The position numbers and the translations under genes were made by a program. DNA of 64,000 bases from Diphasiastrum complanatum (taxonomy: Eukaryota; Streptophyta; Lycopodiopsida; Lycopodiales; Lycopodiaceae): contig CM055107.1 of NCBI GenBank assembly GCA_029204225.1, positions 4,906,353 through 4,970,352 on the forward strand, read 5' to 3'. Under the pieces are notes generated by a model that ran no database searches, was not told the DNA's origin, and worked only from the letters and a program-made list of their open reading frames with translations. Shown here piece after piece: positions 16,878 through 63,865 of this stretch. Numbering within the stretch: position 1 is the stretch's first letter; every line of letters starts with the position of its first letter.

Positions 16878-18126
16878 ATGGAAGGATCAATCACATAAAT
16901 CCGATTGATCAATAAGTTCAATGGAGATGATTTTCACCTTTGGAAATTCAAGATGAGGATGATACTGATAAAAAAGGAGCTATGCAGATACGTTAATGGT
17001 TCAATAGCCAAACCAACTAAACCAGAGCTGCTACTCGTATGGGAAGCAGAAGATGGCAAAGTGCTTGCCATTGTATCCTTAAATTTGAAAGATACTCAGA
17101 TAGCTCATGTATCAAATTGTTCCACTTCAAAAAAAGCATGGTATACTTTGACAAGCATTTATGAAACATTAGATGTATCAACTCATCTCTTTCTACAAAA
17201 GAAGGTCCTTACCCTCAAAATGAGCGAAGGCACCTCAGTCAATGATCATTTGAATGAGTTAAAACAATTGTTGAATCAATTAGCTACAATAGGTTTGCCT
17301 ATCTCCGAAGAAGATTCCACTATGTCTCTTCTTGCCATCTTCCTTCCTCCTACGACAATCTAGTATTGCTTTTGAGCAATACTCCTGGGCTATCACTCCA
17401 AAAGCTAACAACAAGTTTACTACAAGAAGAAGTAAGGAGAAAAAGCTTATCTACGACAAGTAACAAAAAAAATGGTCTTGTACTCCAATAAGCAACAATC
17501 CAAGAAGAAGAACTTCAAGGATAAGAAGACAAAGGCCGAACAGGCAGATTCAACACAACAGCAACAACACAGTCGACAACAAACTACCAAGACCAAACTC
17601 TTTTGCAAATATTGCAAGAGAAGCAATCATGACATCAAAGACTATCGAATTCTCAAGCATAATGAAACGAAGAAAAAGATGCAACAACACCAAGAAGGAG
17701 GCCTTGACTCCGTCAGACATTTCCAAGAAGAAGAAAAGGTGATGATGATACAAGATCAACCATGTAAAGATGCCTATGAATGGTATCTAGATCTAGGTGC
17801 TTCTCAGCAACCTATTTTTGAATCTTACAGCAACTGAATCAAAGCACATATTCTTTGGAGATCACACAAAGTCGAAAGTGAAGGCTCTATTCGACTTCAA
17901 TTCCCAGATGGTATCACTAGACAGCTTGATGGTGTACTCTATGTACCCGAACCATACAAATAATTTATTGTCTATAAGCAAGATCACTGATCAAGGCTAT
18001 AGATCTTTGTTTACTTCTAGTCGATGTATCATTCTTGATAAGAATTCGAATGTAATCCTCTTTGCACACAGAGAAGGAAATTTATATATTTTGAGTCACA
18101 ATTATGCACTTTTGGTGAGTAATTAA
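16878..18126 (+). pseudogene. Ty1/copia gag, zinc knuckle, protease and pre-integrase region
   Basis: The start ATG at 16878 is followed after five codons by a TAA. The frame then continues as a copia Gag: INKFNGDDFHLWKFKMRMIL, TAKKAWYTL-like TSKKAWYTL, and LNELKQLLNQLATIGLPIS (about 16900-17363). After a shift, 17472-17837 encodes a basic linker, a zinc knuckle CKYCKRSNHDIKDY in which the last Cys is Tyr, and the protease start WYLDLGASQ, where D-S-G has become D-L-G. From 17797 a third frame gives LLSISKITDQGY, typical of the GAG-pre-integrase segment. The element stops at 18126. A related minus-strand copy is at 47459-48340. Confidence 0.8.
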
Positions 18127-18504
18127 ATTAGATACTTTTGGTACTGATTTAGATTTTGTTTTTATGACATGCAACACATATTACGACATCATTCGACATT
18201 CTTTGCAAGAAATAGTGGAAGTCTTAGCATATGGTCATCGCAAGGAATGAAAAAATCTCATTGGCAAGCAAGAGCGACATTTCATAAAAGTACACAACAT
18301 GGCAGGACTAGCACAAAAAATAGCTATATACTGCAACTTTTCCAATGGTTTTACAGAAGAATCCAAATTCGTCATAATACAAAATCGACAGATTATAAAA
18401 AATTTCAAAAAGCATGCAAATTTATACAAGCCAGTAGGCTATAGACACACAACAAAATTCTGTATATTAAATAAAAATATTTACAAAGTACACTTCAACA
18501 ATAT

Positions 18505-20023
18505 CTAATCTGCTTCCGATATTTTTTCCATTGGAAGTTGCAACTTAGAATTATGCAACAATTTTCTTCTTTCGTATGGATTCAAGAGCTCATAGTTTTC
18601 ATGCTTACTCAGATCAACGTAAGCAGCATACACTGCAAAATGAGATGATCTGAGCATGGAATTCACTGGTCCATATCCTAAAATTTTAACCGCAATAGTT
18701 TTCTTTACAAAAATTATTCTATGCACCTTATTAAAATTATGTCCTCCAAGAAAATGAGACAGTGCCTTGATTGCCATAATCATAGTTTCACCATGTTGAT
18801 GAAACTTTGAATGGACAACACTTATCTCATTATTCTTGAAGGACTTTAGATAGTGCCCGAGTGCATGATCTCTTGAAAATTCTCCCGTAGAAGATCTCTG
18901 TTCTCCTCGACGAATTGCGAAATCATCAAGGAAAATTGTTTCCTGAAATGATAAAAAACAAAGTAAGCTCCAGTATATAATCTGACATAACAAATCTACT
19001 AGTACTTGATAAGAGACAAAAACTTACGCATTCGGCTTTGTCTTTTCTGATTACTGTCTCTCCATCAATATTATGTCCACCTTTCGATGTCAATATTGTT
19101 GGTGAATAGGCAGTTGGCTGTGGAAAACCAAGTTGACTTTGGATTCTAAGAAACTCCTCCTCAGAAGGTAGATCATCTTCTTTGTTGCGCATTTCCTCCA
19201 CAGCCATTTTCAAGCAATCTTTCCTTGAATAAAACTTATCATTATGTACATCGTCAACACCAAGGAGAAGATCATCAGCATCAAAATCAATTATATCCAA
19301 AAATTTATCAAGCTCTTTGCTCAAAATGCAAAGAGTCTCAGCTTCAGTGAAGTAAAAAAGATCCGATATATCTGATATTGTTCAAAAGGAATTATTATCT
19401 ATAATATAAGTAGGCAAAGTGATCAAAGATTTATCAAAAGGAGAAAGGGTAGTGGGTGTTCTAGGGCCTATAAAAGTAGCCTATTTCGAACAGGATCAAA
19501 ATCAGAACAATCATCTAAATGGACACTCGTGTCAATAAAAAAGTTATCTATATCTACAATCTTTGACTTTTCAGACTTTGTACCACTAGAAGAAGCTGCT
19601 TCAGAAGTGGAGGGCATAGAGTCTGAATCGTCAGAAATATTTAACAAAAGAAAAAAAAACAAAAGCAGACTGAAAATCAACAAATCTACATTTTTTATTG
19701 TGAATTGGGCACTCATCTATAGACTTGAAATCATTATATAACTTGGTAAACATTTTGTCAAACTTAGCTTTGTAGATATGCTTGTCGAGTGCCACCAGGT
19801 CGTGATAATGAATCATGTCTTTATTCTGAGACCTGAATAATGGAATACTGAGCAGGGACTTACATCTGAGATATATCCCAAAAAATGCCTCCACACCAGG
19901 GCCCTCAATTATAGAAGGTAGAATAAAAAAAAAAGGAGAAAAAAGGGATTTGAAATAGTCCAACCTATCAGTAATACCAAATTCATTAAAAAAAGAAAGC
20001 AAACTAGATTTAAAATTAGACAT
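18505..20023 (-). pseudogene. Unassigned spliced gene, minus strand
   Basis: Not recognised. The ATG at 20023 begins MSNFKSSLLSFFNEFG, and the frame runs about 115 codons, ending near CPIHNKKCRFVDFQ. At an A/T homopolymer near 19650 it shifts into a Ser/Asp-rich acidic stretch (DDSDSMPSTSEAASSSG). Another shift near 19490 and a TGA near 19385 precede SKELDKFLDIIDFDADDLLLG. A clear intron follows: donor GTAAGT after 19028, acceptor TTTCAG before 18942, 85 bp, phase 0. The last exon (18942-18505) is well kept and contains HQHGETMIMAIKALSHFLGG and a basic end. The promoter is the duplicated block at 19981-21245, shared with the H3-like gene. It could be a host gene in decay or part of an unknown element. 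Confidence 0.5.
18943..19027 (-). other. 85-bp GT-AG intron
   Basis: On the minus strand it begins GTAAGTTTTTG and ends TTTTTATCATTTCAG, and it joins codons in phase 0. This shows the surrounding sequence was a spliced eukaryotic gene. Confidence 0.75.
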
Positions 20024-20625
20024 GTTAAACAAAAATAAGAGAACTGAAGTTCCAAATATCGCTCCTAGGTGCAAACCCCAGGTCAGACAAGCACGTCAAG
20101 GCAACGTGCGCTCGAGAGAGATATTGGAAGCTGGAGTATTGGATCCAAGCGCAGAAACAACGAGCAGGAAAGAAAAGGGATACAAAACACGCTTGAATGC
20201 GATACCGGAGGATGCAGTATCGAATCCAGGCGCATATCGGATCCAGGCGTATAATAGTCAACGAGACTTTATGAGAGGAAGTGGCATGCTTGAAATCGAT
20301 ATCCGGCAAAGCAATCGTAAATTTGCGTGAAAATCCGAACTGGAAAAGACCTATTTATATAAAATTTTTTGCACGTGTGGAGGAGTGGCGAAGGAACACA
20401 CGTCGACATGTGATTGGCCAAAATAAATGCGTTGTACCTTGAATGATTGATCTGACATCTGTCACGTGCGAGAATGACATGCGTCGATAAGGGATTCACG
20501 CACGTGTCTCAGCCCATGTGTGCCCATAATTGGGTCATCATTATCAAAACAAAATTTCCACGTGGTCTAGTCAGCTGATGACACGTGTCTAGGCCATTAT
20601 TTCACACGTGCAAAAATTTACGAAA
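19981..20625. repeat. Duplicated promoter block, copy 1 (645 bp)
   Basis: The block holds the first 14 codons of the minus-strand gene (ATG at 20023), its roughly 300-nt leader, a minus-strand TATA box and several CACGTG motifs (about 20370, 20462, 20500, 20561, 20582, 20605). It repeats at 20626-21245 with moderate divergence. Confidence 0.85.
20351..20361 (-). promoter_or_regulatory. TATA box of the minus-strand gene
   Basis: Reads TATATAAATAG on the minus strand, about 330 bp before the ATG at 20023. The second block keeps a weaker TTATAAATATG near 20974. Confidence 0.55.
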
Positions 20626-21245
20626 ATTCATTAAAAAAGAAAGTAAACTGGATTCAAAATTAGACATTTATAACAAAAATAATAGAACTGAAGTTCCAAA
20701 TATCGCTCTCAAGCCCAAACCCCAGGTCCGACAAGCACGTCAAATCAACGTGCGCTCGAGAGAGATATTTGAAGTTGGAGTATCGGATCCGAGCGCAAGG
20801 AAAACGAGCAGAAAAGAAAAGATTTGCAAGACGCGCTCGAATGCAATACCGGACCACGCAGTATCGGATCCAAGTGCATATTAGCCAATGAGATGTAATG
20901 AGGCAAGCGGCGCGCTTGAAATCGATATCCGGCAAAGCAATCGTAAATTTGCGTGAAAATCCAAGCCCAAAAAGACATATTTATAAAAAAAATTTTGCAC
21001 ATGTGGAGGACTGGCGAAGGAACACGTGTCGACTTGTGATTAGCCAAATTAAATGCGCCGTACCTAGTATGATTGATCTGACATCTGTCACGTGCGAGAA
21101 TGACACACGTTGATTAGAGATTCGCACATGTGTCTCAACCCACGTGGCCTCATAATTGGCTCATCATTGTCAGTACGGACATTCCACGTGGTCTATTCAT
21201 CTGACGACATGTGTCTCGACCGTCTTTTCACACGTGCAAAAATTT
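20626..21245. repeat. Duplicated promoter block, copy 2
   Basis: Second copy of the block. Its copy of the minus-strand ATG is followed by an early stop, so only the promoter part can matter. CACGTG motifs lie at about 21023, 21088, 21141, 21185 and 21227. It ends just before the TATA box of the H3-like gene. Confidence 0.85.
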
Positions 21246-21247
21246 TG

Positions 21248-21257
21248 TATATATAAG
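21248..21257 (+). promoter_or_regulatory. TATA box of the H3-like gene
   Basis: TATATATAAG, about 320 bp before the ATG at 21567, with CACGTG at 21227 immediately upstream. Several copies of an (A/G)ATATCG...TCAAGC-like motif lie in the presumed leader (about 21303, 21390, 21450). Confidence 0.6.
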
Positions 21258-21566
21258 TCCTCGGAATTTTCATTTTTTTCTGTAAAATTTTCGCTTTTAG
21301 GTTCCGATATCGCTCTCAAGCACGCTCTTTCATCTTTCAAGCTTTCGCCCTCTCACAGTGCACTCGAGTCTGATACCACCTGCTGTGCAATATCGCTTTC
21401 GAACACGCATCTCTTTTCTGCAAATATTCTCTGTAGGTCTTGCACTCGATATCGATATTCAGTGCTGGTATTGATCTCAAGCGCCCTTTCATCGCAAATT
21501 TTTTTGTTTTGATCCACTTTTGTTTTGTTCAAATTTCTTTTTGTTAATTTTCTTCTTCTGAGAATG

Positions 21567-21887
21567 ATGGCCAAGACCAAATCCACTGCCCGTGCCATCA
21601 CCACTGTACAGCCATCCCATTCCCGTGTTCCCCTTGGTACTGGCCGTAGGCATGGCAGGAAGCAGGTGTGGCTGAGGGAGATCGGAAAACTCCAGAGATC
21701 ATCCATAGAGCTCCTTTCGGCCGTACGGAATGTCACTCTGTCTCTTGGACTGGATGTTTGTTTTGCCGTGACAGCCATGCAGGCCTTGCAGGGTGCTGTA
21801 GAAGATTTTCTGTCCCAGTTTTTTGAGGATACTTGTCTTTTGGCAGTGCATGGTAAGCATGTCACCATTATTGTACCATCACTCTAG
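21567..21887 (+). CDS. Divergent histone H3/CENH3-like protein, 106 aa
   Basis: It resembles histone H3 along most of its length. The N-terminus AKTKSTAR matches the H3 tail ARTKQTAR, keeping the Lys-4 position, but the Lys-9 position is Ala. LREIGKLQRSSIELL (about residues 37-51) matches the alpha-N helix. ALQGAVEDFLSQFFEDTCLLAVHGKHVTI (residues ~73-101; split here as ALQGAVEDFL and FFEDTCLLAVHGKHVTI) matches alpha-2 and loop 2. The N-loop before alpha-1 is about nine residues short, and alpha-1 is diverged. The protein stops after VTIIVPSL, so the last helix (KDIQLARRI in H3) is missing; usual H3 is about 136 residues. AVEDFL is closer to CENH3 than to canonical H3. An ATG directly precedes this start, at 21564. 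A GTAAGC inside the HGK codons (21853) could act as a splice donor. It has its own TATA box and leader. It may be a truncated pseudogene, a specialised variant, or a histone gene carried by an element. Confidence 0.6.
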   Translation: MAKTKSTARAITTVQPSHSRVPLGTGRRHGRKQVWLREIGKLQRSSIELLSAVRNVTLSLGLDVCFAVTAMQALQGAVEDFLSQFFEDTCLLAVHGKHVTIIVPSL

Positions 21888-21972
21888 ATTTGTTCAAGAG
21901 TGATAGGGTCAAGTTTAGAAGCATCAATTTGCTATAAAACATCCTTGGATCTGTCCTCCAAGTGAAACCTTT

Positions 21973-22772
21973 GAGAGTTTCTAGTGCATATAGAGCATCT
22001 ATGCAAATCTTTTGTAGAATTTGACATAGATTGGCTTAAATTGAGAGTTCTAGAAAAGAGATTGAGATCCAAGCCTCTGGATAGAACCAACGTGCCTACT
22101 ACCTCTAGAAGGAAGATAAAGCAGACTGTCCCCAAGAAGCCTAGATCTCGAAGGCCAACTGCTTCCCTTCCTCCTAGACGTATCCTGACCAAGAGACCCC
22201 GTGTCTTCCTGAGCTCTAAGTCAGATGCTAGAGAATCTGACTCAGATCAAGAATCTTCACCCAGTCCTCCTCCTGTTATTCGTCCAGCTCCTCTACAGGT
22301 TTTATCACCAAAAGTGTTGATTACCCAAGAGGAGCTAGACAGAATAACAGAGAAATCTGTAAATATTCTTTCCACTTCTGTTTCTGCTCCTATACATAAT
22401 GTTTTTGTGAGAATTCCATACGATCCAGCCCAGGTTTTTTTTTATTCTGACCATTATAATCAATACGAGGCCTACCTAGCTAAGAAAATTGATCTTCTCG
22501 ACAACTTTTTTGATTTTTTTCTTCCAAATACACATAGAAGCTTTAGATTAGGTCCCAAATTTTGTGCCGAGCTAAAAGATAAGACCTCAGAAATTTCAGA
22601 TGCAATAGTAGAGGCTAGAGTTTTTTTTTTGCAGAATAGTATTAGTTTCGATTTCCATGGTACAATTTTTGTAGTTAGTCCATTTTTCATGGGAGCGGTA
22701 AAGGCGAAAGAAGCCAATTTTGAGAAGGCTGTCTATTTTATCGAGTGTAGTCCTATGGCAAAATTTATTTGA
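21973..22772 (+). CDS. Unassigned basic/acidic protein, likely an exon of a spliced gene
   Basis: Not recognised. The open frame of about 265 codons lacks an ATG at its upstream end, so it is probably an exon continued from the left. Its first third is strongly basic with nuclear-localisation-like stretches (RRKIKQTVPKKPRSRRP, LPPRRILTKRPR), then a Ser/Asp/Glu patch (DARESDSDQESSPSPPP). The rest is mixed and aromatic-rich (ILSTSVSAPIHNVFVRIPYD, NFFDFFLPNTHRSFRLGPKF). It ends with a stop at 22772, and a GTAAG donor lies 20 bp later. It follows the H3-like frame by 85 bp on the same strand. Confidence 0.45.
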
Positions 22773-22912
22773 TTCCATATGAAAATAAGTAAGGATTGCT
22801 TTTTTTTTTTTTGTTGCTTTAATCTAGATTGTTGCATGTCTCATTGCTTTAATAAGAACGAAATTTTTTCATAAATATGAATTTAACAATATTTGTTTCT
22901 TGGTTGTTGCAG

Positions 22913-23734
22913 TTGGCATTGGAGCCTAAACATTCTTTTTGTAAAGATAAATAAGGAGAGAGTATCAAATTTTCTATGTGTAAAATTAAACTCAGCTGCA
23001 AATACACATAGAGAATTTGATTATTTACTTCATGATGCCGTTCGGGAAATACCAACAACGGCAACTTCAATTGGAGATATAACCATTAAATCTCTCAAGG
23101 TATATTCAATTTATCTCTGATATGCATATATTCTTTTTTTAATTAAATGTATCGTCATAGCATAAATAAAATTTCTATCATAATATTACTAATTTTCGTT
23201 CTATATATGCAGCGTGAACAACAAAATGACGTTTTTAGTTGTGCATGGTTTGTCTTGTACAATACGAAGCTATTTTTTGAATGGTATAATTTACAAACGG
23301 ATGTAGATATTGAAAAGGTAATATTCTATTCATTTGTAGTTCATTTCATTCTGATTCATATTTTATTACTATCATTGTTTGTAATTTGTTGATTCTCATA
23401 TTTTGTGATGATAGTTCACTCTTGAGCCGTATACTCCTGATGATGTATATAGATTTCGAAAAGAGTTGATCAAAACCTTTGCCCAGTACGGTGTAAGCGT
23501 TGCACTTGCAATCGGGGCCTTCAAAAGGAAGCTGCTCCTACTTTAATAGCCTTTCAGGTTGTTCAGAATGCAGATCTTATTTTATATGATAAAAAAGAAA
23601 TAAAAGTCCTTCCTAATACAGAGGAAGGCAATTTTGTAGCAGATATTCCTCTTGTCTTAAAGGGCATTGAGGCCCTTCCCGAAATAGAGAAGGACGAGAT
23701 TATAGAAGGAGCTGTTGCTTTATCAGTTCCATAG
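22913..23734 (+). CDS. Unassigned spliced gene with Cys-rich motif
   Basis: Not recognised. Three exons are indicated by good splice sites: 22913-23099 (acceptor TTGTTGCAG, donor AAG/GTATAT), 23213-23317 (acceptor ATATGCAG, donor AAG/GTAATA) and 23415-23734. Phases are compatible: the two introns (113 and 97 bp) are phase 0. Exon 1 has NSAANTHREFDYLLHDAVRE; exon 2 has NDVFSCAWFVLYNTKLFFEW. Exon 3 begins FTLEPYTPDDVYRFRKELIK, then moves by one frame into CPVRCKRCTCNRGLQKEAAP and a 70-codon tail ending ALSVP before TAG at 23734. The frame change near 23485 is a single-base indel or an unseen splice. The Cys cluster could bind metal. Confidence 0.45.
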
Positions 23735-23917
23735 AAAATATAAAAAAATTGATTGAATAGAGAACTATTTGTAAATAGAGAGACATAAAAATAAAAGATA
23801 CAATCATTTTACTTGTAAACAACCCGTTTATGGATTTTTTTTATTGATATCACAATAGATTCTTACAATCAGCTTGTGTCCATAGTCTAATAATGGAATG
23901 CAATTTTTCTATAATAA

Positions 23918-24325
23918 TTAAAAGACATTGACATGTATTTGCTGATAGTGAATCTCAATGTTCTTCCATAAGTTGGATTGTTTCGCCAATATTTCTGTAT
24001 TTGATCTCGAGCTCATGTCTTTTACGTATCTGCATAAAATCAATACAAAGTTAGTTAGAATTAGTACAGAGTTTGTATTAGAAAATTTTGATTGAAAATA
24101 TTCATAAAAGATGGAGTGTTTATAGTTACTTATGAGTTTACCATTAAAAATGAATCTGAAGTCTAAAAGTACATCATCTTGTAGGAGCAATAGTTCCCGC
24201 CAGATGTAGTTTAGACTCCAATCTTCTTCCACCTCAACACATGTCAAAACGACATCATTGTATATAATTTCAATTTTTTTCTGTTTTAAATGTCCACTGG
24301 CTTCCAAGTCTTGATCGAGTGGCAC
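23918..24325 (-). CDS. Unassigned small gene, probably spliced
   Basis: Not recognised. It begins MPLDQDLEASGHLKQKKIEI at 24325 and has an acidic/aromatic middle (EEDWSLNYIWRELLLLQDDV). A donor-like AATG/GTAAAC near 24142 and an acceptor-like TTTTATGCAG near 24028 suggest an intron of about 110 bp. The frame happens to stay open across it. It lies in the same compact cluster as its neighbours and is convergent with the gene ending at 23734. Confidence 0.35.
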   Translation of the reverse strand: MPLDQDLEASGHLKQKKIEIIYNDVVLTCVEVEEDWSLNYIWRELLLLQDDVLLDFRFIFNGKLISNYKHSIFYEYFQSKFSNTNSVLILTNFVLILCRYVKDMSSRSNTEILAKQSNLWKNIEIHYQQIHVNVF

Positions 24326-24406
24326 TCATTTACCTTTATTTTTTTCAATCTTTGATAATGGAAGCATAAGCTCAACATTTGTTTTTCAATTTGATAACGG
24401 AAGCAC

Positions 24407-24775
24407 ATGGAAGACATTTTAATTCTGCCTTCTATTTCTCCATCTGATGTTTTGTCTCAGCCTTCATCCATAAGTTCAAATAATAAACTATTTGATAAAT
24501 TTTTGCATACAAACATCGTTGGGGTTCTGCGTACATTGACACTTGCAAAGAAATTCACAAATATATTCAAGGAAATAAACCAACTCAATCTGACTGTTTT
24601 TGATCCCGTGCTCATTTTTAATGAATTTTTTACATCATTATATATCTTGCAACAAAATGATTCTGAAACTGTAGCATCTGGTGCAATCCATTCATCACTT
24701 TCAGAGCTAGGTAATGAAATTGAAACTATTTGTCCAAATTTTTTTTTTGTATCAAGAATGTACATTGATTCATAA
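24407..24775 (+). CDS. Unassigned 122-aa protein
   Basis: Not recognised. Uninterrupted frame from ATG (MEDILILPSISPSDV) to TAA, Ser-rich at the start and helical later (VLRTLTLAKKFTNIFKEINQ). It starts about 80 bp from the divergent gene at 24325, so the two may share a promoter. No domain seen. Confidence 0.35.
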   Translation: MEDILILPSISPSDVLSQPSSISSNNKLFDKFLHTNIVGVLRTLTLAKKFTNIFKEINQLNLTVFDPVLIFNEFFTSLYILQQNDSETVASGAIHSSLSELGNEIETICPNFFFVSRMYIDS

Positions 24776-25084
24776 AAAAAAAATTCCACCATCAGTTAGA
24801 TATTTTGCAGTTCTACCTCAATATTGCAGCTGTCCAATATCAGTGTGAATTACATCTAACACACCTGCTAAAGATCCACTCGGATCCCATTCATTTATGT
24901 TGGATGAATATAGATCTGCAAGAGAAAAATGATCAGATTGGCAAGTTTACTATTAGATATTTATGAATGACAAAAATCAAAGTATCAAAAATATCAATAC
25001 TCACAGTTGCTTTTTTTGTGATCTTGACGGTTGAATCCTTGCACATTTATCTTTGAATGCATATATACATGTTGGACTAGAATT

Positions 25085-25321
25085 TCAGAAATAGATTTTT
25101 CTCCTGATGATGTTCTGAATTCCAAAATTCTGGCCTTCCAATAAGATCGAAATGATAATTTTGACATTTTCCTTTTTCAAAATGCTCCTCTCGATGATGG
25201 ATGCATCAAAACCCAAGAGTTTTTTTGAATATTTTTTTGGCACCAATAATCCATTATCATCTGTTTCGTTGAATAGAAGCACAAAGTCGATTGAGGAGCA
25301 CGACTTCCTTGATGGCGCCAT
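25085..25321 (-). CDS. Unassigned small ORF, minus strand
   Basis: Not recognised. 78 codons beginning MAPSRKSCSSIDFVLLFNET, with a KKYSKKLLGFDASIIE stretch. It may continue as an exon toward lower coordinates. Weak support: open frame in the cluster only. Confidence 0.25.
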   Translation of the reverse strand: MAPSRKSCSSIDFVLLFNETDDNGLLVPKKYSKKLLGFDASIIERSILKKENVKIIISILLEGQNFGIQNIIRRKIYF

Positions 25322-25329
25322 TCGTAATT

Positions 25330-26342
25330 TGCATGTAAAAATCTGAAACAATGAACTATGAATCTGAAAATTTGCATAGACAAAAAGCCATGAATCTGAA
25401 AAAAAGTGTTGGTGAAAATTTGAAACACTGATCTATTTGGCGTCACAAATTAACTCCGGTTATCCCTGTTAACCGTGGTTTGACAATGCATATACATTAA
25501 TGATATATCAATTTTCTCATCTCAACCATCTGTCATATTCATTTTCAATATTTTTGGGTCTCTTCGGACAGTGATGAGCTGGAAGGGCAGGCCTCATCAA
25601 CCAATAGCATTTCCACATGCTGCCCGACGAAATAACAATATATTTAAAATTTTTTTATTTTATTTATATTTGAAAAATTCTACGTTACGTAGAACCCCGA
25701 AGCTAAGGTTTCAATTGGTCCACATGGCAACGAAAATAAGAAAAAAAAAAAAATCTTTTTCAAAGGCCCTCGTCGGGCTCTAAGTTTCTCTAATGTCTTT
25801 CCTACTGTTCTTCTTTATTTTTCTTATTGCTTGCCTGTCATTTTGACAAATTTTTTGCTATGCTTTCTTGTTCAAACCATCAAGATACTATCAAATCAGG
25901 TATACCAACAGTCTTCTATGAGAAAACCACAAAAGCCATTAGTTTCAGAAGAATTGTCTCACACCATCTCAGATAGAATTTCCCTGACCTCTTTTTTACA
26001 GTGCACGATCCATTTTTGGCCTCCGCAAATTCTGTATCAGAGACAAAAAAATTAAAAAATAGGAAAAGTTCATTTTTTTCATTAAATATCCACTATTAGA
26101 ATTCACAGACAATTAGCTGAAGCTCAAAATGATTTCTACGATTTCTATGCTATCTTTGGGAATTCTGATCAGAGAAAGTTTTGCACTGTCAGACATTTTT
26201 TTTCGCTTTTGGCATAAAAAAGTCACTTACAAGAATTCATGGGCCTTCAGAACGTTGCCTCAAAATTCACGACCATCATTACCAAATCGTGAACATTGAG
26301 GACGATTGCTGAGTGAAGTTGCGAATTCTTGACAAATAAAGT
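25330..26342. other. Spacer without recognisable gene
   Basis: AT-rich. Only short frames (about 70 codons) without homology. Confidence 0.35.
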
Positions 26343-29945: not shown

Positions 29946-30079
29946 ATTTGAGGCCCCCACGTTTGGATGAGATAGAATTAGAAGAAGAGGAGATTGAATA
30001 TGAGGGTAGCTCACATCATCAAATGATCTATGATTATTAATACTTAAATTCACTTGCACTCATATTTTTTTATATTCAT

Positions 30080-32243
30080 CGCAATAGCCTTTTGTGATGA
30101 GCATGGGATCAAGAGGGAGTATACAACATCAAGGACTCCACAACAAAATGGAGTGGCTGAAAGGAAGAATAGGACTTTATGTGAAAGTGCTAAAGCCATG
30201 AGATTAAGTGCTAATCTTGATAAGCCATTTTGGGAACAAGCTTTGTTGTGTGCCAATTTCTTGTGCAATAGGTGGCCAGTTGCTATTTTGGATGGAAAGA
30301 CACCTTTTGAGATGCTATTCAAGAGGAGACTGAGCGTCAACTTTCTAAGAACTTTTGGATGCACATGCTATGTCAACACTACTCTTGATGATAGGACCAA
30401 GGAGGATCCATCTTCAAAGAGAAGTATTTTTGTTGGATATAGTGAGGTGAGTAAAGCCTACAAGGTTTACATTCCTACTACTAACAAAGTGATTGTTGGT
30501 AGAGATGTCATTTTGAGGAGAACATTCCAAAAGTGTCTTCAAGTACTATTGATGTTGATGTGGATGGATCTAAGATTCTTGATGTTGATGATGATGGACC
30601 TTCATCAAGTCAAATCCAAGGAGAACATAAAGGGAAAGACAAGTACTTTCAAGGCTCACATATGATGAAAAGGGTAAGAAAATAGTTTCTAGAAATTATA
30701 TTGCTTTCCTAACCTCTTTTGATGAACCTACAAGTGTAGATGAAGCAAGGAAAGAAGAGGAGTGGATCCAAGCAATGGATCTTGACTATTAAGCTCTTAT
30801 GAAGAATGGAACATGGAGATTGAAGGAGTTGTCTAAGGACAAGAAAGCTATTGGAGGTGAAGAGAAACCAAGATGGATCTATCAACAAGTACAAGGCAAG
30901 TTTAGTGGAAAAAGGATATGCTCAAGAACAAGGGATTGACTATGATGAGACCTTTGCACCTGTGGCAGATGGTAAGCATCCGAGTCATCATCTCACTTGC
31001 TACACTTTATGGATGGGATCTATGGTAAATGGATATTACAAATGCATTCTTGAATGATGATCTTGAGGAGGAAGCATACATGGATCAACTTGAGAGCTAC
31101 ATTTCATCAACAAAGCCAAATCATGTGTATCTACTACAAAAGAGTTTGTATGGCCTTAAGCAAGCACCAAGGAGTTGGTATGCTAAGCTTAATATTTTTT
31201 TACTCTCTCAAGTTTGTTATGAGTGAATACGAGCATTCACTTTATTATAGGTTTGCTGAAAATGATGTTACCATCTTGCTAACCTATGTGGATGATATCA
31301 TCTTGAATGGTGGAGACACTAAAGATGTGGATGATATCAAGAGTGCTCCTAAGAAGGAATTTGAGGTGCATGATCTTGGTAACTTGCATTAAATTTTGGG
31401 AATAGAAGTCATTAGATCTTCTCAATCTACTTTCATTTGTCAAGAATAGTATGCTAATTCTATTCTAGAAAGATTTCATATGGTAGATGCAAAAGCTAGT
31501 GATACACCTATGGAGTCTCATGTAAAGCTAACTATAAGAGGTAATGAAAGATCCTTCAAGGACATTACTCTCTATAGGAAGCTAGTTGGTTCACTCATCT
31601 ATCTACCCATTACTAGACCTGATTTAAGCTATTGTGTTGAAAGATTTAGTCGATTCATGCAAGATCCTAGTGAGGAGCATTGGAAGCTAGGAAAACAAGT
31701 TTTGAGGTACATCATTGGAACTCGAGACTTTGGCATATTTTGTATGAGGGATCATCATCTAATCTTTTTGGATTTTCAGATTCAAACTATGCTAGAGATG
31801 TAATGGATATAAAATCCATTAGTGCTCATTGTATCTTCATAGGTGATGGAGCTATATCATGGATGTCAAAGAAACAAGCCCCTATCTCATTGTCATCTAG
31901 TAAGGCCGAGTACAAAGCTCTTACACATTGCACAAAGGAGATGGTATGGATGAAGAGGATGATCAAGGATCTTCACTTGCTGGATTTTTCAGAGAGCCCA
32001 ATCATCTTTTGTGAAAATCAATTAGCCCAAAGGTTGGCAACCAATCCTATCTTTCATGCTAGGAGCAAGCATATTGAGGTGCAATATCACTTTGTGAGGG
32101 AGCAAGTCATTGCAAAGGAGGTGGAGATTCAACATGTGTCCTCAAGGGAATGTGTAGCTGATATTTTCACCAAAGCATTGGGAAAAGACTTGTTCATGAA
32201 GCATAGGACATTTGGAGTGTTATCAAAGTCTATGCTAAGTTGA
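30080..32243 (+). pseudogene. Ty1/copia pol: integrase half, reverse transcriptase, RNase H
   Basis: It starts inside the integrase core at FCDEHGIKREYT with PQQNGVAERKNR, keeping the catalytic Glu. Then comes the integrase C-terminal part with FLRTFGCTCYVNT and GYSEVSKAYKVYIP (to 30520). The reverse transcriptase follows after several frame changes: [55 protein letters not shown] and YVDD (31288-31299). LVGSLIYLPITRPDLSYCV precedes RNase H with KKQAPISLSSSKAEYKAL, RSKHIEVQYHFVREQVI and ADIFTKALGKDL, ending at 32243. The element keeps the motif order INT-RT-RH that defines copia. Shifts near 30520, 30850, 31030, 31200 and 31750 and stops near 30790, 31390 and 31450 show it is dead. The left end is cut at 30080. 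Confidence 0.9.
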
Positions 32244-32689: not shown

Positions 32690-34125
32690 GTGAAATAAAG
32701 TAGCATCATATACATGTAGTACCAAATTATCATACATAGGTAGTACTAGAATGGTAGAAAGTAGCAACAAGTAGTACCAAAGCATCATATACAGGTAATA
32801 CCAAAGTACCAAAGCATCTTATAGTACCAAAATATCTAATATGTAGAAAGTACAAGAACCTTAATTGGTAGTGTGGAGGCCAAAATTGTTACACGATAGG
32901 TTCAAATAGTACCAATCTTTGGTACTCAAAAGTTTAAGGAACACGTAAATATTACAAAAATCTAAGTATAAATCTTGTAAAATTGGTAGTAACTAAAGCT
33001 TAGATTCCACCACTTGGTAAACAACACTAAAATAGTACCAAAAAGACCACAACGAATTGTATGTGAACTACGAACACAAATAAATATAAAGAAAAAAGTA
33101 CCCAATTTTATAGTTTTATGGGTAAAATATGATCACGAGAAGTCTAAATAGTACCAATTTGGTGGATTTCAAAATAAAAATGAGACACTTACTATAAAAG
33201 AATTTAATTTGGTAGTTGGGAGGATCAGATTGGTACTCGATAAGTTATTGTAGTACCATTCTTTTGTATTCAAGAGTTTTACCAACAAAAAAAAAGTACA
33301 AAATTTGTAAAGTTAGTGCCCGACTACTGGAGTAATACTGCCAATTGGTGTAACAACACTAAAGCAGTACCAAAAAGATCGCGTCGGTCATGTGCAATAT
33401 GCAAATACGACGAAATATAAAAAAATAGAATCAAATGCTGTAGATTCTAAAATAAAAATGGTACACACTATAAATCTCAGTAGACCAATTTGGATGATTT
33501 TAGAATGAAAATGAGACACGAGGTATTAAAGAACCTATTTTGGTAGTCTGTTTATCAAAATTATTACACGATAAGTTCCAGTAGTACCAATACAAACATT
33601 CAAGACAAATATTCAAACATTCATATACAAACATTCAATACAAATATTGCTTCATTACAAACATTCAATACAAATATTGCTTCATTAGTACAAATCAGTG
33701 GCAAATGACTTTGAGACTTCAATCTTAAAACAAAAATGCAGACCAACATGTACCAGCAAGTATGAATACTATCAAACTTTGGTAGTCGAGGGTTTCAAAA
33801 AATGTCAAAATGCAGTCGAACATAATTTTCTTGTTGTTGCACGTTGAATAGCTGTTTATAAGCTTTTTAAAATACCAAAGTACCACAGATAAAATAATCA
33901 GTTGTGCAAAAACTACTACAAGTCTCAAAGTACAAAACAGTACTTTTGAAAACACCTGAAATATTACAAGTACCAAAAGTTCCAAAATATTTAAAAGCAC
34001 CAAATAGCTAAATGCTAGTAGATCAAAAAGTACCAAAATGTTGCAAACAACAGATTGAAGAAACGTTTGAGAACTACCAAAACTATCAAAAGCACCAAAG
34101 AGCAACAAACAACAATACTTTCTGC
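32690..34125. repeat. Tract dense in AGTACCAAA, with about 335-bp higher-order repeat
   Basis: AGTACCAAA or its complement occurs well over a dozen times. Longer units repeat at about 32855, 33200 and 33527 (AATTTGGTAGT...GATAAGTT...AGTACCA), and the segment AACAACACTAAA occurs at 33022 and 33351. Within it, 33627-33656 and 33657-33686 are a perfect 30-bp tandem duplication. No coding sequence seen. Confidence 0.7.
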
Positions 34126-34129
34126 ACAC

Positions 34130-35445
34130 CAGAAGTACAAAATGTTCCATGAGGTCCTTCCCGTTTCTTACCAGCCCAATAAATCTCTAGATTTTTGTGT
34201 AATAGATCTTTGAAAGCTTGTTGCATCACCCTTTGAAATGTGGACGGGGCATTACATAGACCGAATGGCATAACTTTATACGTGAAGGTGCCAAACTCTG
34301 TAACAAATGTCATTTTGAAACGATCTTCAAGAGCAATTTGGACTAAGAAATAGCCACTAAAATCATCCAGGAAGCTAAAAGCTTCTGCTCCTGCCATATC
34401 TTCGAGAAGTTGTGTGGTCAAAGGTAATGGGAAGTGATCTTTCTCTGTTTGATCATTAAGTTTCTTCAAATCCACGCAGATATAGAGTTTACCATTTTTC
34501 TTTGGTACCACCACAATTGGTGATACCCAACTTGTATGCTCGATTTCATAAATGAAACCAACATCAAGAAGCTCCTGAATATCTTTTCGTATCTTCTCGC
34601 GATAGGTAGGATTGGTGCGATAAGGTTTGGCTCTTATAGGTATGGCACCATCCTATATTGGAATTGTGTGGACTGCAACGTCAGGAGGAACCCCCTTCAT
34701 TTCTTTATAACTCCACGCAAACACATCTCCGTATTTGCGCAATAGCTTTTCCAAATCCCATAATTGAGTTGGACTCAGGTGGGCTCCTACGTGTACAATA
34801 TGATATGTCGTCATCATCATCCTTCAGATTAAGAGATATTGCCTTTGCAGGTCCCTCAAAAGAAGTTGATGGTGGTTGAGGCACCCGTTTTGGCTTTATC
34901 ATACTGATGATGACATCATCAATCATGTAATTCTTAAAGTGCTGGGAAACATCATATAGTGGATCATCAACGATTTCAGATGGGATCTTAGGAATGTCCT
35001 CTATAGGTGGGCTTGTAGATGATGAAGCTTGGCTAGGATTTTTTGATTTTGTATCAAAGGTTTGATTGGCTGTTTCAGCTTTTCACGCATTTGGAATTGC
35101 TTATCAGTCAATCGTACATCAAGCATGCAGGGTATTTGTGGATTTGTAGTAGTAGACATGCATGGATTTTTTTGTGATTTTTCTTGAACTAAGTCTTCGT
35201 CAATGGTGTTCAAGATTTCATCATTGTGTACATCCCATTGATAGACTTTTACCTTTGGCCGATATACATGAGTATTTATTGGTTGTGGATGTTGCACACA
35301 AGCCAATGGTGATGGACATTTGGCTTGTTGCACCCAAGCCAATGGTGATGGACATTTGGCTAAAAGCATGGTTTGGTAGTATAACATGGACTTTCAAGGA
35401 CACTACCTTTTTTGGGTAGAAATGCACTTTTGTATTATTATACAC
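34130..35445 (-). pseudogene. Ty3/gypsy (Tat-like) reverse transcriptase region
   Basis: Minus-strand reading from about 35390: a linker, LLRKYGDVFAWSYKEMKGVP (34690-34750), and HTIPI(stop)DGAIPIRAKPYRTN. Then the reverse transcriptase with SPIVVVPKKNGK, CVDLKKLNDQTEKDHFPLP, FSFLDDFSGYFLVQIAL (first catalytic Asp), FGTFTYKVMPFGLCNAPSTF and LHKNLEIY. There the copy breaks: the YxDD part is missing and WAGKKREGP follows, an internal deletion. A frame shift lies near 34800, and a 36-bp tandem duplication at about 35291-35362. FAWSYKEMKG before the RT is typical of the Tat/Athila branch. Confidence 0.8.
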
Positions 35446-54881: not shown

Positions 54882-55379
54882 AAGTACAAGAGGATTTATG
54901 AAGATTTGATGGGGTTGATCCAAAACTCTAAATCTCCCAAATTAGCAAGTTTGTGGAAATTGGCTAATTTTGAGGTAGAGAGTTTGAATTGATAGCTAGA
55001 TTCAATTTTTTTGTACCAAAATTTGTTGTAGGCTGTAGGTGTACCTTCCACACGTGTGGGGCCATACAGAACCTGTTTTGGTTGGGAAAATTTAAATTGA
55101 TGCATAATTTGACTCATACACCCAAATTTAGAGATTTTTAGTGCAAATTCAAGATTTTTCTATATAGATTCTATTCCTATGATTTGTTCTTGGATTAGAT
55201 CATCCAAATAATTTAATTTGAAGTTTGATTCAGGTGCATTAAATGTGTTTCTTTGATTTTTTGAGTACATGTCAAAGTTGAGAGAGATATTGCCAAAAAT
55301 CATTGATTAAGGAGTGATATGCAAGGTGAGAGGTTGAAATCCATTGTACCATCACTCTAGATTTGCTCAAGAGTGATAG

Positions 55380-55871
55380 TGTCATGCCCATGACTGGTCT
55401 CGGGTAGCATATCCACGCTAGGGACCGGTAGACCGACAACTCATAAGTTAATTGTGACTATAAGGAATTTGGGGCCCTTATGTGTACATGGTCATAATTA
55501 ATGGTTGTAGGCCTAAACACTTGATGGTGGATTTGTATGGGTCTATTAGTGAGTCATTGGGGAACTAGATGACATGGCCCAGATAGGCTACAGAGGTGTC
55601 CAGTGAGGTGTCACAGTGCACTACTAGTGGTGCATGGGCCTTGGAGCCTTATAAGTCTACCTATTGGGCTCTCACTAGTGTATGCTTGATAGCATGACCG
55701 ATGGCATGATGCTGCTGGTGTGATGCCTCATTCTTCTTTGTGATTGATCTATAGCTTGAGGGCTAGATCCGTTTGATCTAGGTTTGGTTGGGTTGGTTTG
55801 TCCACCATCAGGTTCCCTTGTGTTGCTTGTGACTGGCATGCTTCGAATAGGATCCTTGGATTAGGACTTTA
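55380..55871 (+). repeat. LTR of another element, with primer-binding site at 55875
   Basis: It starts TGTCATGCCC and runs to GGACTTTATA, followed by TGGTATCAGAGCC (55875-55887). The end resembles the CTTTATA end at 5031 and 10195. Internal sequence after it shows no gag or pol motif. Confidence 0.5.
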
Positions 55872-58255: not shown

Positions 58256-59869
58256 TCAGCTGGAAATCTGCACCCATGCTGCAGAACTTGGAATTCCCTG
58301 GTTAACGACAAAGAGCATGTAGTAAGCAGACGGAGCTATCACATTGTTAGTCGGGGCCGTGACTGTTACTTGATATCCAGTCCCTGAGCCCACCTGTTGA
58401 GACACTGCCAGCTTAAGGAGCCGTAAACCTTGTGAAAATGAGTGAGTGGTGTAAGGAGAACTAACTAGATTCACCTCTACGTTGCCTTGTGGTGCGTTTG
58501 GAACTGAGAAGCTGATAGTGAATACGGAATTATATGTAATTGGAGACGTAGGAGAGCTTAAAATTGTAGGGCGCAGGTTAGAGTTTGCGGGGCTGAGATA
58601 GTCAGGAGAGAAGGCTTCGACTCGTAATTCTGTGGGCAAGTAACCAGTGAACGTGTAAAACTGGTGAGTGTTACTGCCAGCCACGAGCACACGGGCATCT
58701 GGCAGCAAATTGGCAGTGGAGTGGTATACTCTAGGAATTGTACTGGCTGTCAATGTGCTAAGTCTATTTCCGGCAGCTGCTGTGGGCACGTACAAGAAGG
58801 GACTCAAATTTGGATTGATCGCATTTCCCCAACCAGAACAGCCATTCTGGGCTCCGTTGATGATTAGAACATCTCCGTTGGGGAGGAGTACCATGTCTCC
58901 CATAGTGCGTGCTGTTGGCATAGTCTCCATCGCCCACGCTGCACTGGTATCGGTAGCAGTTATTCGTCCACAGGTCTGCGATGCCAGTGGAAATGTTGAA
59001 GGATTTTGGAAGGCTCCGAATTGTGCACCTCCACAGACAAGAATTTCAGCTGTTGAGAACCCATCACTAGCCATCAGCGGCAGCATCACTGAAGATCCAG
59101 CTGAAGGATAGTTTCTGGGCTCACCAGGAATAGTTGGATAAGTTCTCACGACAGTGTTGGTGAAGTAATTGTACAGAATAGAATCTCTGTTGGCGAATAT
59201 GAAGAGGTTTCCATCAGGAATGAGGTGAACAAAGGGGTAATAGTTGTCATTTTGAACATCTTCAGTTTGCTGCAAGAATGGTAGATACGTAGTTCCTTGG
59301 CCATTTGCAGGAATGAACTCCGTCGTGAAAACAGATCGTCCGCCAACGATTATCTGTCTACCGTCGGGTAAGATCTGATTAGTAGCATACCAGCGACCCT
59401 GTTGCAGACCTTGATCTGTGGCTTCAACCCAGTCACAGGTGCCATCACTGGGGCAAGGCGTAAAATACCTGACCTTGGTATTGCCATCAAAGTCGCCTCC
59501 TGTTTGCACAAGCATGCCGTTCGCAAAGAACTGGCCGGATGAGCACCAGGTGTCTGTTGCAATATAGAGAGGTCTAATGCTGTTAGATCCGGGGGTGAAG
59601 AGAACAGAGTGGGCCGTGCAGTCATGGGTACTTGTGAGGTCTGAGGAGTCGTCACGGCATCGTCCATTGGGTAAGTTGATCTGAGAAGGTCCAATGTCTG
59701 TCCTATCCAGAAAGATCACAGTTCCAAAGTGTGTGACAGCAGTGTGCATTGAAGCTATGCCAGCGTTCGGAACGAGCAGCTCCCAGCTACCCTGAGCAAG
59801 AACAAGCTCAATGAAGCTAGAAGCCCATAACACAAACGAGATCACGAAGCAGTAATCCATCTGAAACAT
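58256..59869 (-). CDS. GLOX: Glyoxal oxidase-like copper-radical oxidase, secreted, 537 aa
   Basis: A single intact exon encodes a plant aldehyde/glyoxal oxidase, which oxidises aldehydes to acids and releases hydrogen peroxide outside the cell. Residues 1-26 form a signal peptide (hydrophobic core, ending VLAQ before GSWELL). The N-terminal glyoxal-oxidase beta-propeller domain (about 30-425) carries TDTWCSSG with Cys109 and GRWYATNQ with Tyr161, expected to form the Cys-Tyr radical cofactor. RVYHSTANLLPD provides copper ligands Tyr382 and His383. The C-terminal domain (about 430-537, DUF1929) gives the last ligand, His476, in PYTTHSFSQ. All catalytic residues of the galactose-oxidase superfamily are present and the length is normal. 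Two start Met are close together; Met4 lies directly after a TTTCAG that could be a splice acceptor, so a 5'-UTR intron is possible. Such enzymes act in cell-wall and pollen or defence biology in plants; the role here is inferred. Confidence 0.96.
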   Translation of the reverse strand: MFQMDYCFVISFVLWASSFIELVLAQGSWELLVPNAGIASMHTAVTHFGTVIFLDRTDIGPSQINLPNGRCRDDSSDLTSTHDCTAHSVLFTPGSNSIRPLYIATDTWCSSGQFFANGMLVQTGGDFDGNTKVRYFTPCPSDGTCDWVEATDQGLQQGRWYATNQILPDGRQIIVGGRSVFTTEFIPANGQGTTYLPFLQQTEDVQNDNYYPFVHLIPDGNLFIFANRDSILYNYFTNTVVRTYPTIPGEPRNYPSAGSSVMLPLMASDGFSTAEILVCGGAQFGAFQNPSTFPLASQTCGRITATDTSAAWAMETMPTARTMGDMVLLPNGDVLIINGAQNGCSGWGNAINPNLSPFLYVPTAAAGNRLSTLTASTIPRVYHSTANLLPDARVLVAGSNTHQFYTFTGYLPTELRVEAFSPDYLSPANSNLRPTILSSPTSPITYNSVFTISFSVPNAPQGNVEVNLVSSPYTTHSFSQGLRLLKLAVSQQVGSGTGYQVTVTAPTNNVIAPSAYYMLFVVNQGIPSSAAWVQISS

Positions 59870-59990
59870 GAGAAAAATTCAGCAGAAGAGACTATGCTAG
59901 TCAGCGCTTGGACGACCAACAACAAAGCAGCTGCTCAGCTCTTGAGCTTTCTAAGCAGAAATACATTATTATCAAGGCTAACTATGTAGG

Positions 59991-61269: not shown

Positions 61270-63865
61270 GGCTAGATCTTGATCTAGAAACAATGCACTA
61301 TAGATTAAAGAGCCTATAAGCTTTCTATAGAGTGTGATGTCCTCAAAGGATGCTTCATCACCATCATTAGAAACTTTACAAACTTGCTCCATAGGGGTGT
61401 CAATCCCTTTACAATCTTTCATGCCAAACCTTTCAAGAATGGAAGTAACGATATTTTGATTGACTTATAATAGTGAAATCACTACCTCTAGAAACTTCTA
61501 TTCCTAGTATAAACTTAAGAATTGTCCTAGATCTACCATCTTGAATTCTCTAGACAATGCAACTTTAACATTTTGTATGCCTTCATAATCATTTCATGTC
61601 AATATAATATCATCAACATAAAGAACTAAAATGATGATCTTACCATCATTACACTTGATGTACAAAGAAGGTTCATAAGAAGCTCTAGGTGCTTGCTTCA
61701 AGCCATATAGGCTCTTCTTCAAATGGCAAACCTTGTCCTCCTCACCATCCTTGATGAAGCCCTCGGGTTGCAACATGTATAATTCCTCCTCCAAGTAGCC
61801 GTTCAAAAATGCATTGGTCACATCCATTTGATAGAGATTCCACTTGAACAAAGTAGCAATACAAATGATCAATCTAATACTATTACAAGCTTTGCTATAG
61901 GTGCAAATGTTTCTTCATAATCTATGCCTTTAGTTTGAAGAAACCCCTTAGCAACAAGTCTAGCTTTGTACTTACTTATATATCCATATTGATTGTACTT
62001 TAATCTATAGATCCACTTACATGCAAGTGGCTTCTTCCCATGTGGAAGGTGTCCAAGATTTCAAGTTTGATTATCTACCAAAGCATCAAACTCTACTTGC
62101 ATTGCATCTCTCCAAGCTTGTGATTTACTAGCATCTTCATAACATGATGGCTCTTCAAGCATTGTAATTAGAAAAGAGTAAGAGGTAGAAGGAGTTTTGT
62201 CTTTCCTTTGCTTTCCTTTCTCAAAGTATGTGAGCCTTGAAGGCTCAGCCTTGTTCCTTGTGGATCTCCTCGGCCCCTTTGGTTCTTGAGCGTGATCTTC
62301 CAAAAAATCATTTTCAAGAAGCTCCTCCTCGGGTTTTGCAAGATCTTCAACACATTGAGGATTAGATGCATTTGAAAACATCTTAGAACTTTGAGATTCA
62401 TCAAATAACACATCCTTGCTAAGTTTACCTTCCTTGAAATAGGATCAAATACCCTATATCCTTTGCTATTTTTACTATAGCCTACAAATATTCCTTTGAA
62501 GGAAGTTGCATCTTCTTTCCTTCTAGTTTCCAAAGGAATCTGGACATAACATATACATCCAAATACTTTAAAGTCTTTTACATTGGACTTATTGCCAAAC
62601 AAAGCTTGATATGGTGAGATCCCACCAATAGCACTACTAGAAGCCTATTACATAAAAAGTTAGCACAAGTTATGGCCTCTCCCAAAAATGAGATGGGTAG
62701 AGATGCATCAAGCCTCAAGGACTTTGCACATTCACATAGGCTCCTATTTTTCCTCTCGGCCATCCCATTTTTTTGGGGGGTGTAGGAACAAGTAAACTCT
62801 CTCTTAATGCCATTGCTCTCACAAAAGTCTCTCATCTTATTGGAGATATATTCTCCTCCATTATCACATCTTAGAGATTTAATGCAAGAACTAAGTTGTT
62901 TTTCCACTAGAGACTTAAACTTCACAAAAGCTTCATATACAAGGCTTTTCTTAGACAATGAATCTATCCAGGTGTATCTAGTACAATCATCTATGAAATT
63001 CACATACATTAAAGCACCTCCATTACTTTCATGAGAAAAAGCATGTACATCTGAATGAATAAGATCCAAGGGTGAAGTAGATCTTGAAAAGATCTCTTGT
63101 AGGATGTCTTGTGTGACTTTGCGAGGCCACATGCCTCACACACTTTGCCACACTTTGTGAATGATTTTCATAGGCCGAGAGCTAGCTCCTTTGAGGCCAT
63201 GGACTCCATTGATTGAAGATTAGGCTTGCCTAATCTTTTGTGACAAAGCTCCACTTGAGTCATCTCCTCCCTTCCCATATTCACACTTTCAATGGCCACA
63301 TTTGCAGCCAACTTAAAATTCCTTCCTTGCTTAATGCCACTAGCTATGCACTTATCATGTTTCAAGATGGAACACACTCCATTCTTGAAATGTACATCTA
63401 GCCCATTATCCATTAGTTGACCAACACTAAGCAAATTTTTGGTAATGGATGGAACATACAAAACATTATCAAGATCTATCCTTTTAGATGGTCCTAAGAA
63501 TAATGGAATAGATCCTATGCCATCTATCTTACATTCTTGATCACTAGTAGTGTAGATTGATTTCTTAGAATCATTACAAGATAGTAAAGTAGAAAAGACA
63601 TGCTTGTTGAATGACATGTGGGAACTAGCCCCACTATCAATTCACCATGTCTCTTTGCTTGATGTTGGTGTAGATGCTACCATCAAGGATGTGTTGAAGC
63701 CATCCTCTTCATCCTCCTCTTGTGCAAGATTTCCATGATCCTCATTGCCTTGTGAGATCTTCTTCTTATAGCATTTAGAAGCAAAATGTCCTTTCTTTCC
63801 ACAAAAGAAATACTTTAGCTTAGCTTTGTTCTTGATCTTTCCTTTGGAGGTAGAGCCACCATTCT
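61270..63865 (-). pseudogene. Ty1/copia element: zinc knuckle, protease, integrase, reverse transcriptase
   Basis: The longest copia copy in the window, read from 63865 down. Knuckle YFFCGKKGHFASKC, with the first Cys lost (63820-63780). Protease: TSSKETW(stop)IDSGASSHMS keeps D-S-G, but a Trp codon has become TGA (about 63640). Pre-integrase: LDNVLYVPSITKNLLSVGQL (63480-63415). Integrase with [41 protein letters not shown] and MAERKNRSLCECAKSLRLDA (63132-62580), then GYSKNSKGYRVFDP. Linker with RRSTRNKAEPSRLTYFEK. Reverse transcriptase: [34 protein letters not shown] and VLYVDDIIL (61872-61594), ending with DTPMEQVC and YRKLIGSLIYSALF at about 61270. RNase H and LTRs are missing. Frame shifts near 62590, 62430, 62060, 61880 and 61600. 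Confidence 0.9.

Follow-up and report, generated by a model that had tools for sequence, protein, structure and literature searches.

A histone H3-like reading frame of Diphasiastrum complanatum is probably a decayed gene of a high-copy DNA transposon

Histone H3 is among the most constrained of proteins, and the plant centromeric variant CENH3, which like the protein described below is a diverged form of the H3 fold, is marked by an insertion in loop 1 relative to H3. Beyond these chromosomal histones, H3-like genes are also known from transposons of fungi. In Pyrenophora tritici-repentis an H3L-bearing hAT transposon of ~5.6 kb occurs in 26 copies, and its description (PMC3538342) gives it features that recur in the element treated here, namely inverted ends, an additional ORF of unknown function beside the transposase gene and an H3-like gene distinct from both H3 and CenH3, in a multicopy family of which some copies are intact. 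In Pseudocercospora fijiensis and its relatives, according to PMC6710886, a hAT DNA transposon has likewise amplified host H3 sequence to hundreds of copies. Among plants, a parallel in organisation is provided by the VANDAL elements of Arabidopsis (PMC10398659), which are also several-gene DNA transposons with non-coding tandem repeats. No plant case of a transposon-captured H3 was found in the open-access literature, and the word 'histone' is absent from a 2026 review of plant gene capture (PMC13317346). H3 capture by hAT elements is thus already published for fungi, and the transposon H3 proposed here from sequence comparison appears to have no plant precedent that we could find.

The window, by which is meant the whole 64,000-nucleotide stretch of contig CM055107.1 that was analysed, contains an H3-like ORF that opens with an ATG at 21567 (a second in-frame ATG lies at 21564), ends with a TAG at 21885–21887 and encodes 106 amino acids with no internal stop. 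The original prediction saw in it a highly divergent, shortened H3/CENH3-like gene with an unbroken frame, raised GC content and a promoter of its own. The resemblance to H3 is borne out by a profile search, in which the ORF together with its in-frame upstream codons scores 38.4 bits (E=1.7e-9) with the Pfam Histone family, for which the cut-off is 26.4, and better copies from elsewhere in the genome give the full H3 fold (E=2.9e-23 and 2.1e-21). The open frame and the richer composition were also seen correctly, GC being 0.43 in the 2-kb bin to which the ORF belongs and 0.34 on either side, as was the TATA element TATATATAAG, about 310 bp upstream of the ATG. The idea of a promoter of its own is partly right, this element being common to 10 of the 11 copies compared. 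Taken together with the evidence below, the ORF is likely to be one decayed example of a histone gene that belongs to a high-copy DNA transposon, ~10 kb long and bounded by terminal inverted repeats. Of the several origins first suggested, that of a mobile-element histone is thus supported. The features of the window copy are collected in Table 1.

Table 1. Features of the transposon copy in the window (position 1 is the first nucleotide of the window).
Feature	Position	Strand	Basis
5'-truncated copy of the H3-bearing transposon	18121..25795	+	89-92% identity to C577 copy; 3' end common to other copies
Reverse-strand gene remnants, ORFs 18508-19023, 18929-19381 and 19634-20095	18508..20095	-	ORF list; no Pfam match reaching its cut-off for three C577 pieces
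First ~640-bp non-coding tandem repeat unit, between divergent genes	19979..20619	.	83% identical to 20624-21245
Second ~640-bp tandem repeat unit, stopping just ahead of the TATA element	20624..21245	.	83% identity to first unit
TATA element TATATATAAG	21248..21257	+	Sequence; identical motif in 10/11 copies, the 11th being TATATGTAAG
H3-like ORF, 106 aa, probably a degraded copy of the transposon histone gene	21567..21887	+	Pfam Histone E=1.7e-9; alignment to other copies
Two deletions (13 and 5 nt), limits approximate	21690..21725	+	Alignment; gap in 1/34 copies
204-bp young high-copy repeat replacing +321 to +407	21869..22072	.	Block comparison with C577; 40/40 places identical
Remainder of H3 gene first exon (linker and C-terminal extension), beyond the stop of the H3-like ORF	22073..22788	+	91-92% identity to other copies; ORF 21984-22772
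Candidate splice donor GTAAGG, inferred to end the first exon	22789..22794	+	Sequence; exact motif in 16/34 copies (15 GTAAGG, 1 GTAAGA)
Right terminal inverted repeat TTTCTCTAATG	25785..25795	.	Imperfect extension to about 32 bp, by eye

A six-frame search of the plant's own genome (1.745 Gb, 5176 contigs) with the 106-residue window protein as query returned 5391 first-look candidates, which are not to be read as a copy number, and all 150 of the 150 scored were matches with E below 1e-39. Four places are 100% identical to the window protein; three of these, on contigs C1630, C2221 and C3696, are 99.8-99.97% identical to the window locus over 3.3 kb and probably represent this locus duplicated or assembled in an alternative form. 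The element was delimited from ten further copies, each with 10 kb of flank on either side. Its homology edge is sharp, lying on the left at CATTAGAGAAAATATGGGCCC... in five copies and on the right at ...GGGCTCTAAGTTTCTCTAATG in the copies W, C3, C577, C2b and C117. These edges carry the terminal inverted repeats CATTAGAGAAA and TTTCTCTAATG, which are exact over 11 bp, and the sharing of such inverted ends between copies in independent flanks places the element among the DNA transposons with terminal inverted repeats. The copy on C577 measures 9920 bp. In none of C577, C3, C2b, C11 and C2, the five copies for which the two ends were both read, is there a target-site duplication of at least 2 bp, a single base being common to both flanks in three of them, and in the C6 copy the left end is present and the right end was not found in the 600 bp read. 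The parts of the element also keep company in a regular way, with the spacing and strand of the 5' end, a transposase-like exon and the H3 gene consistent between copies: among 146 listed H3 places, 12 are preceded at 3.0-5.1 kb by a listed transposase-like exon and three at 4.6-5.9 kb by a listed 5' end, and, for 12 of the 150 exons listed, one of the 40 5' ends on the list lies 1.1-1.8 kb to the outside.

Assignment of the element to a known class was attempted from several sides. That the H3 gene belongs to an LTR retrotransposon was dropped once the inverted ends had been found. Elements of the CACTA (CMC) superfamily have the ends CACTA...TAGTG and a 3-bp target-site duplication; the present element ends in CATTA...TAATG and has no 3-bp duplication. 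No Pfam match of the Transposase_21 type exceeded its cut-off in the exon pieces scanned, which are fragmentary, nor was there a match to the hAT dimerisation domain among the pieces scanned, which cover part of the element. A viral origin was probed with two scans of viral contigs, which gave 28 pattern matches for the H3 fusion and two for one transposase-like piece, of which none was confirmed in either case.

In its layout, which is most fully seen in the C577 copy, the element has three parts. The left part holds forward exons from about -5436 to -2425 relative to the H3 ATG, with the motifs LKLDESEIIKG and DLKTLKCM...CLYC; we call these exons transposase-like on the assumption that resemblance and position in the element are a sufficient guide. 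In the longest of them, compared over 13 distinct copies, nonsynonymous to synonymous changes stand at 3:5 among shared variants (those in at least three copies) and at 90:19 among single-copy variants (p=0.009, from small numbers). The middle part consists of reverse-strand ORFs, alike in other copies, and the right part of the H3 gene, whose first exon runs for 372 codons up to the GTAAGG donor in C577, with further ORFs downstream. Within this exon the H3 domain continues, in one frame, into a fused C-terminal extension of ~250 residues. A Pfam scan of transposase-like, reverse-strand and extension pieces gave no match reaching the cut-off. A non-coding tandem duplication comparable with that of the window is present in five of the 11 copies compared, the window included; the ~640-bp duplication at 19979-21245 recalls the tandem repeats that are targeted by VANC in VANDAL elements.

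The window copy itself matches the C577 copy at 89-92% DNA identity in three blocks (18121-20610, 20624-21868 and 22073-25795) and, relative to it, is missing some 3.0 kb on the left, where most of the transposase-like exons would lie. Within the H3 ORF it has lost 13 and 5 nt compared with other copies, a gap found in no other of the 34 aligned copies, and the few codons between the two deletions are in a shifted frame, so that it is by the chance combination of two lesions that the frame stays open there. At 21869-22072 an unrelated repeat then stands in place of element positions +321 to +407, that is, of the last H3 helix, and supplies the last codons and the stop of the ORF. This 204-bp repeat had 1294 first-look candidates in the genome, and all 40 places scored were 100% identical over 203-204 bp. 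The deletions and the inserted repeat together account for what had first been read as an N-loop about nine residues short and a missing last helix: the loop is indeed shortened, by a net six codons and not nine, and the helix is indeed gone, from about 21869/21870 to 22072, because a high-copy repeat lies where it should be. Splicing from the GTAAGC at 21853 to an AG before 22014, which would leave a frame judged open by eye, was considered and dropped, since the frame of intact copies runs on without a break at this point and the sequence concerned is part of the repeat insertion. On this sequence evidence the window copy is dead and does nothing by itself. Elsewhere in the window, a 42-bp part of the 204-bp repeat recurs at 55343-55384 (95% identical) beside an apparent LTR start, remnants of LTR retrotransposons (copia-type gag, integrase and reverse transcriptase) lie at 16899-17360, 30048-30662, 34089-34652 and 62581-63135, and an open glyoxal oxidase gene at 58259-59878 on the reverse strand (Pfam Glyoxal_oxid_N, E=9.6e-111) is probably an ordinary host gene.

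The protein family to which the ORF belongs, here family A, is best described from its better copies. Six of these are 39-44% identical over 131-132 residues to a plant H3, and the window copy 35%. Residue counts were taken over 34 copies picked from 150 listed, the order of the list being set by how closely each place resembles the window protein. The collinear alignment with H3 proposed for the window copy extends across the family, and the alanine noted there at the Lys-9 position is a family character, present in 33 of 34 copies; isoleucine stands at position 10, also in 33 of 34. Lys-4 is retained in every copy. The tail is not that of canonical H3 with its K4, K9, K27 and K36, since it is about 13 residues shorter and is without the K27/K36 stretch. 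H113, K115 and T118 are kept in 34/34 copies, R116 in 28/34, D123 in 31/34 and R72 in 30/34; we take H113, R116 and D123 to be H3-H3' contacts. Fourteen of the 34 copies have a stop within the first 116 codons, as expected of dead copies. CAG to TAG is the commonest change to a stop, with 22 of the 49 stops among the 12 commonest types listed, a prevalence that fits deamination of methylated CHG sites, in other words copies that were once silenced.

Whether the histone was of use to the element can be judged from the pattern of change across 32 of these 34 copies, the window copy and one of a pair at 99.7% identity having been removed. When changes present in at least four copies are counted as shared, the nonsynonymous to synonymous ratio in the H3 domain is 29:30 for shared and 82:34 for single-copy changes (p=0.0076), and with C>T and G>A changes left out it is 4:10 and 51:18 (p=0.0036). 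Single-copy changes in the domain match the neutral expectation. Shared variants being mostly synonymous and single-copy variants near neutral, the source elements were probably selected to keep H3, which suggests that the transposon needed its histone while it spread. For the linker, shared and single-copy changes did not differ at any threshold tried (p 0.099-0.76). The C-terminal 142 codons do give a difference (p=0.001-0.036), but this signal is weak, as shared changes there are no different from neutral and five of 34 rows lose homology in the extension; single-copy changes in the extension exceed the neutral expectation, an excess that probably comes from frame-broken rows.

Family A is accompanied in the genome by other H3 domains. 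A search with canonical H3 gave 6060 first-look candidates and recovered 13 separate and intact host H3 genes, at 97-99% identity to the plant H3, together with diverged H3 domains. Eight diverged places were read. Seven, on contigs C19, C10, C13, C17, C8, C9 and C6 (L059-L065), are of a type B in which a stretch rich in proline and glutamine precedes a C-terminal H3, with 394 codons open in the C17 copy. The eighth (L066, C8:18046620-18047070), type C, begins MDRKKQTRRDFF and resembles family A in its fold and in the start of its extension. In a tree of 21 rows, of which most forks are weak, C joins A (90/88) and B stands apart (100/99). The flanks of one type B copy contain no DNA match to family A, and among 53 listed B places one has a listed transposase exon on its own strand no more than 12 kb away, two more have one on the opposite strand and one is near a listed 5' end, which amounts to no clear link with the family A transposon. 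A search for the host CENH3 with a rice CENH3 as query returned canonical H3s at 57-58% and repeat-borne H3s, with no clear CENH3 exon, although introns may hide one.

Several other explanations of the ORF have to be set against that of a transposon gene. Its open frame and TATA element could be those of a working short H3 variant or of a dominant-negative histone, as the original prediction allowed; since the shortening is private to this copy and consists of two compensating frameshift deletions, a young repeat has taken the place of the last helix and the element is truncated, this has scarcely any chance of being right. A dying host CENH3 paralogue is very improbable too. The highest-scoring PDB chain for the ORF is a CENP-A (E=8.9e-9), with H3.Y and canonical H3 nearly as good (E about 1e-8), and tryptophan, as in a CENP-A sequence, stands at position 47 in 34/34 copies, which lends weak support to the lean towards CENH3 that was first drawn from the sequence. 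Against this, family A has no extra residue relative to H3 in loop 1, where the two plant CENH3s used for comparison carry extra residues, and on the absence of this insertion the paralogue was rejected; moreover, all of seven copies align with a higher score to canonical H3 than to either CENH3, the tree does not place the family with CENH3, and its candidates are dispersed in their thousands. The copy is thus dying, as had been surmised, but its parent would be the transposon's own H3 gene and not a CENH3. There is finally the passive case, which we consider distinctly unlikely, that a fragment of host H3 was captured long ago and copied without use by transduplication. Plant transposons often contain captured pieces of the host genome, according to PMC13317346, H3 capture by a fungal hAT left inactivated copies in P. 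fijiensis (PMC6710886), and many copies here have stops; this case sits poorly, however, with the synonymous bias of shared changes in the H3 domain, with a frame and fold residues still kept at ~40-44% identity to H3 (in five of seven copies; 35-39% in the rest, the window copy included), with the in-frame fusion of H3 to the extension and with the conserved TATA element.

From these findings it would follow that the H3 fusion protein was once made and did something for the element. Among the mechanisms that make use of the histone, pairing of the fusion with host H4 and its entry into nucleosomes on or near the element is a credible candidate, though short of a probable one. Methylation of K4 would still be possible in such nucleosomes, but silencing marks at Lys-9, Ser-10 and the K27/K36 stretch would not, the first two residues being alanine and isoleucine here and the stretch being absent; the role of the C-terminal extension would be to bring the fusion to the element or fix it there. 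Put in full, a plant transposon would encode its own histone, keeping K4, lacking K9, S10, K27 and K36 and bearing a targeting extension, and would coat its copies with nucleosomes that the host silencing enzymes cannot mark, the tandem repeats perhaps serving as nucleation site and one or more further H3 lineages borne by repeats of this genome having been acquired separately. This extended scheme is offered tentatively and, as a whole, is doubtful. The main rival to deposition in nucleosomes is a chromatin tether, in which the H3-fold fusion would bind DNA, H4 or chaperones and so guide the transposase to chromatin or to its targets, without being deposited as a histone. The uncommon fusion of H3 to an extension speaks for a tether, as does the greater variation of DNA-contact residues than of H3-H3 contacts (R83 is kept in 19/34 copies), but where R83 is lost its replacement is Cys, His or Tyr, which may reflect deamination after insertion, and we hold the tether, too, to be unlikely.

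A gene with the H3 fold is thus present in a single genome in very many copies, dispersed and diverged, of which the source copies were apparently under selection. Should the transposon deploy a histone of its own, this would be a direct counter-strategy to silencing by H3K9 and H3K27 methylation. There is also a caution for annotation in that gene models named 'histone H3-like' or 'CENH3-like' in the same genome can be transposon genes.

In comparison with the systems from which we set out, family A differs from plant CENH3 in the absent loop-1 insertion, the short tail, the fused extension and its carriage by a repeat. A counter-silencing role would bring the H3 fusion close to the VANC anti-silencing protein, although VANC is not described as a histone in the available portion of PMC10398659. 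The copies in P. fijiensis were inactivated by RIP (PMC6710886), whereas those here have shared changes biased to synonymous ones and are far more diverged. The hAT of P. tritici-repentis is set apart by the size of the present element (~10 kb), the lack of a hAT or other transposase match among the pieces scanned and of any target-site duplication seen, and by an H3 that is fused here to a long extension and found at thousands of candidate places as against 26 copies.
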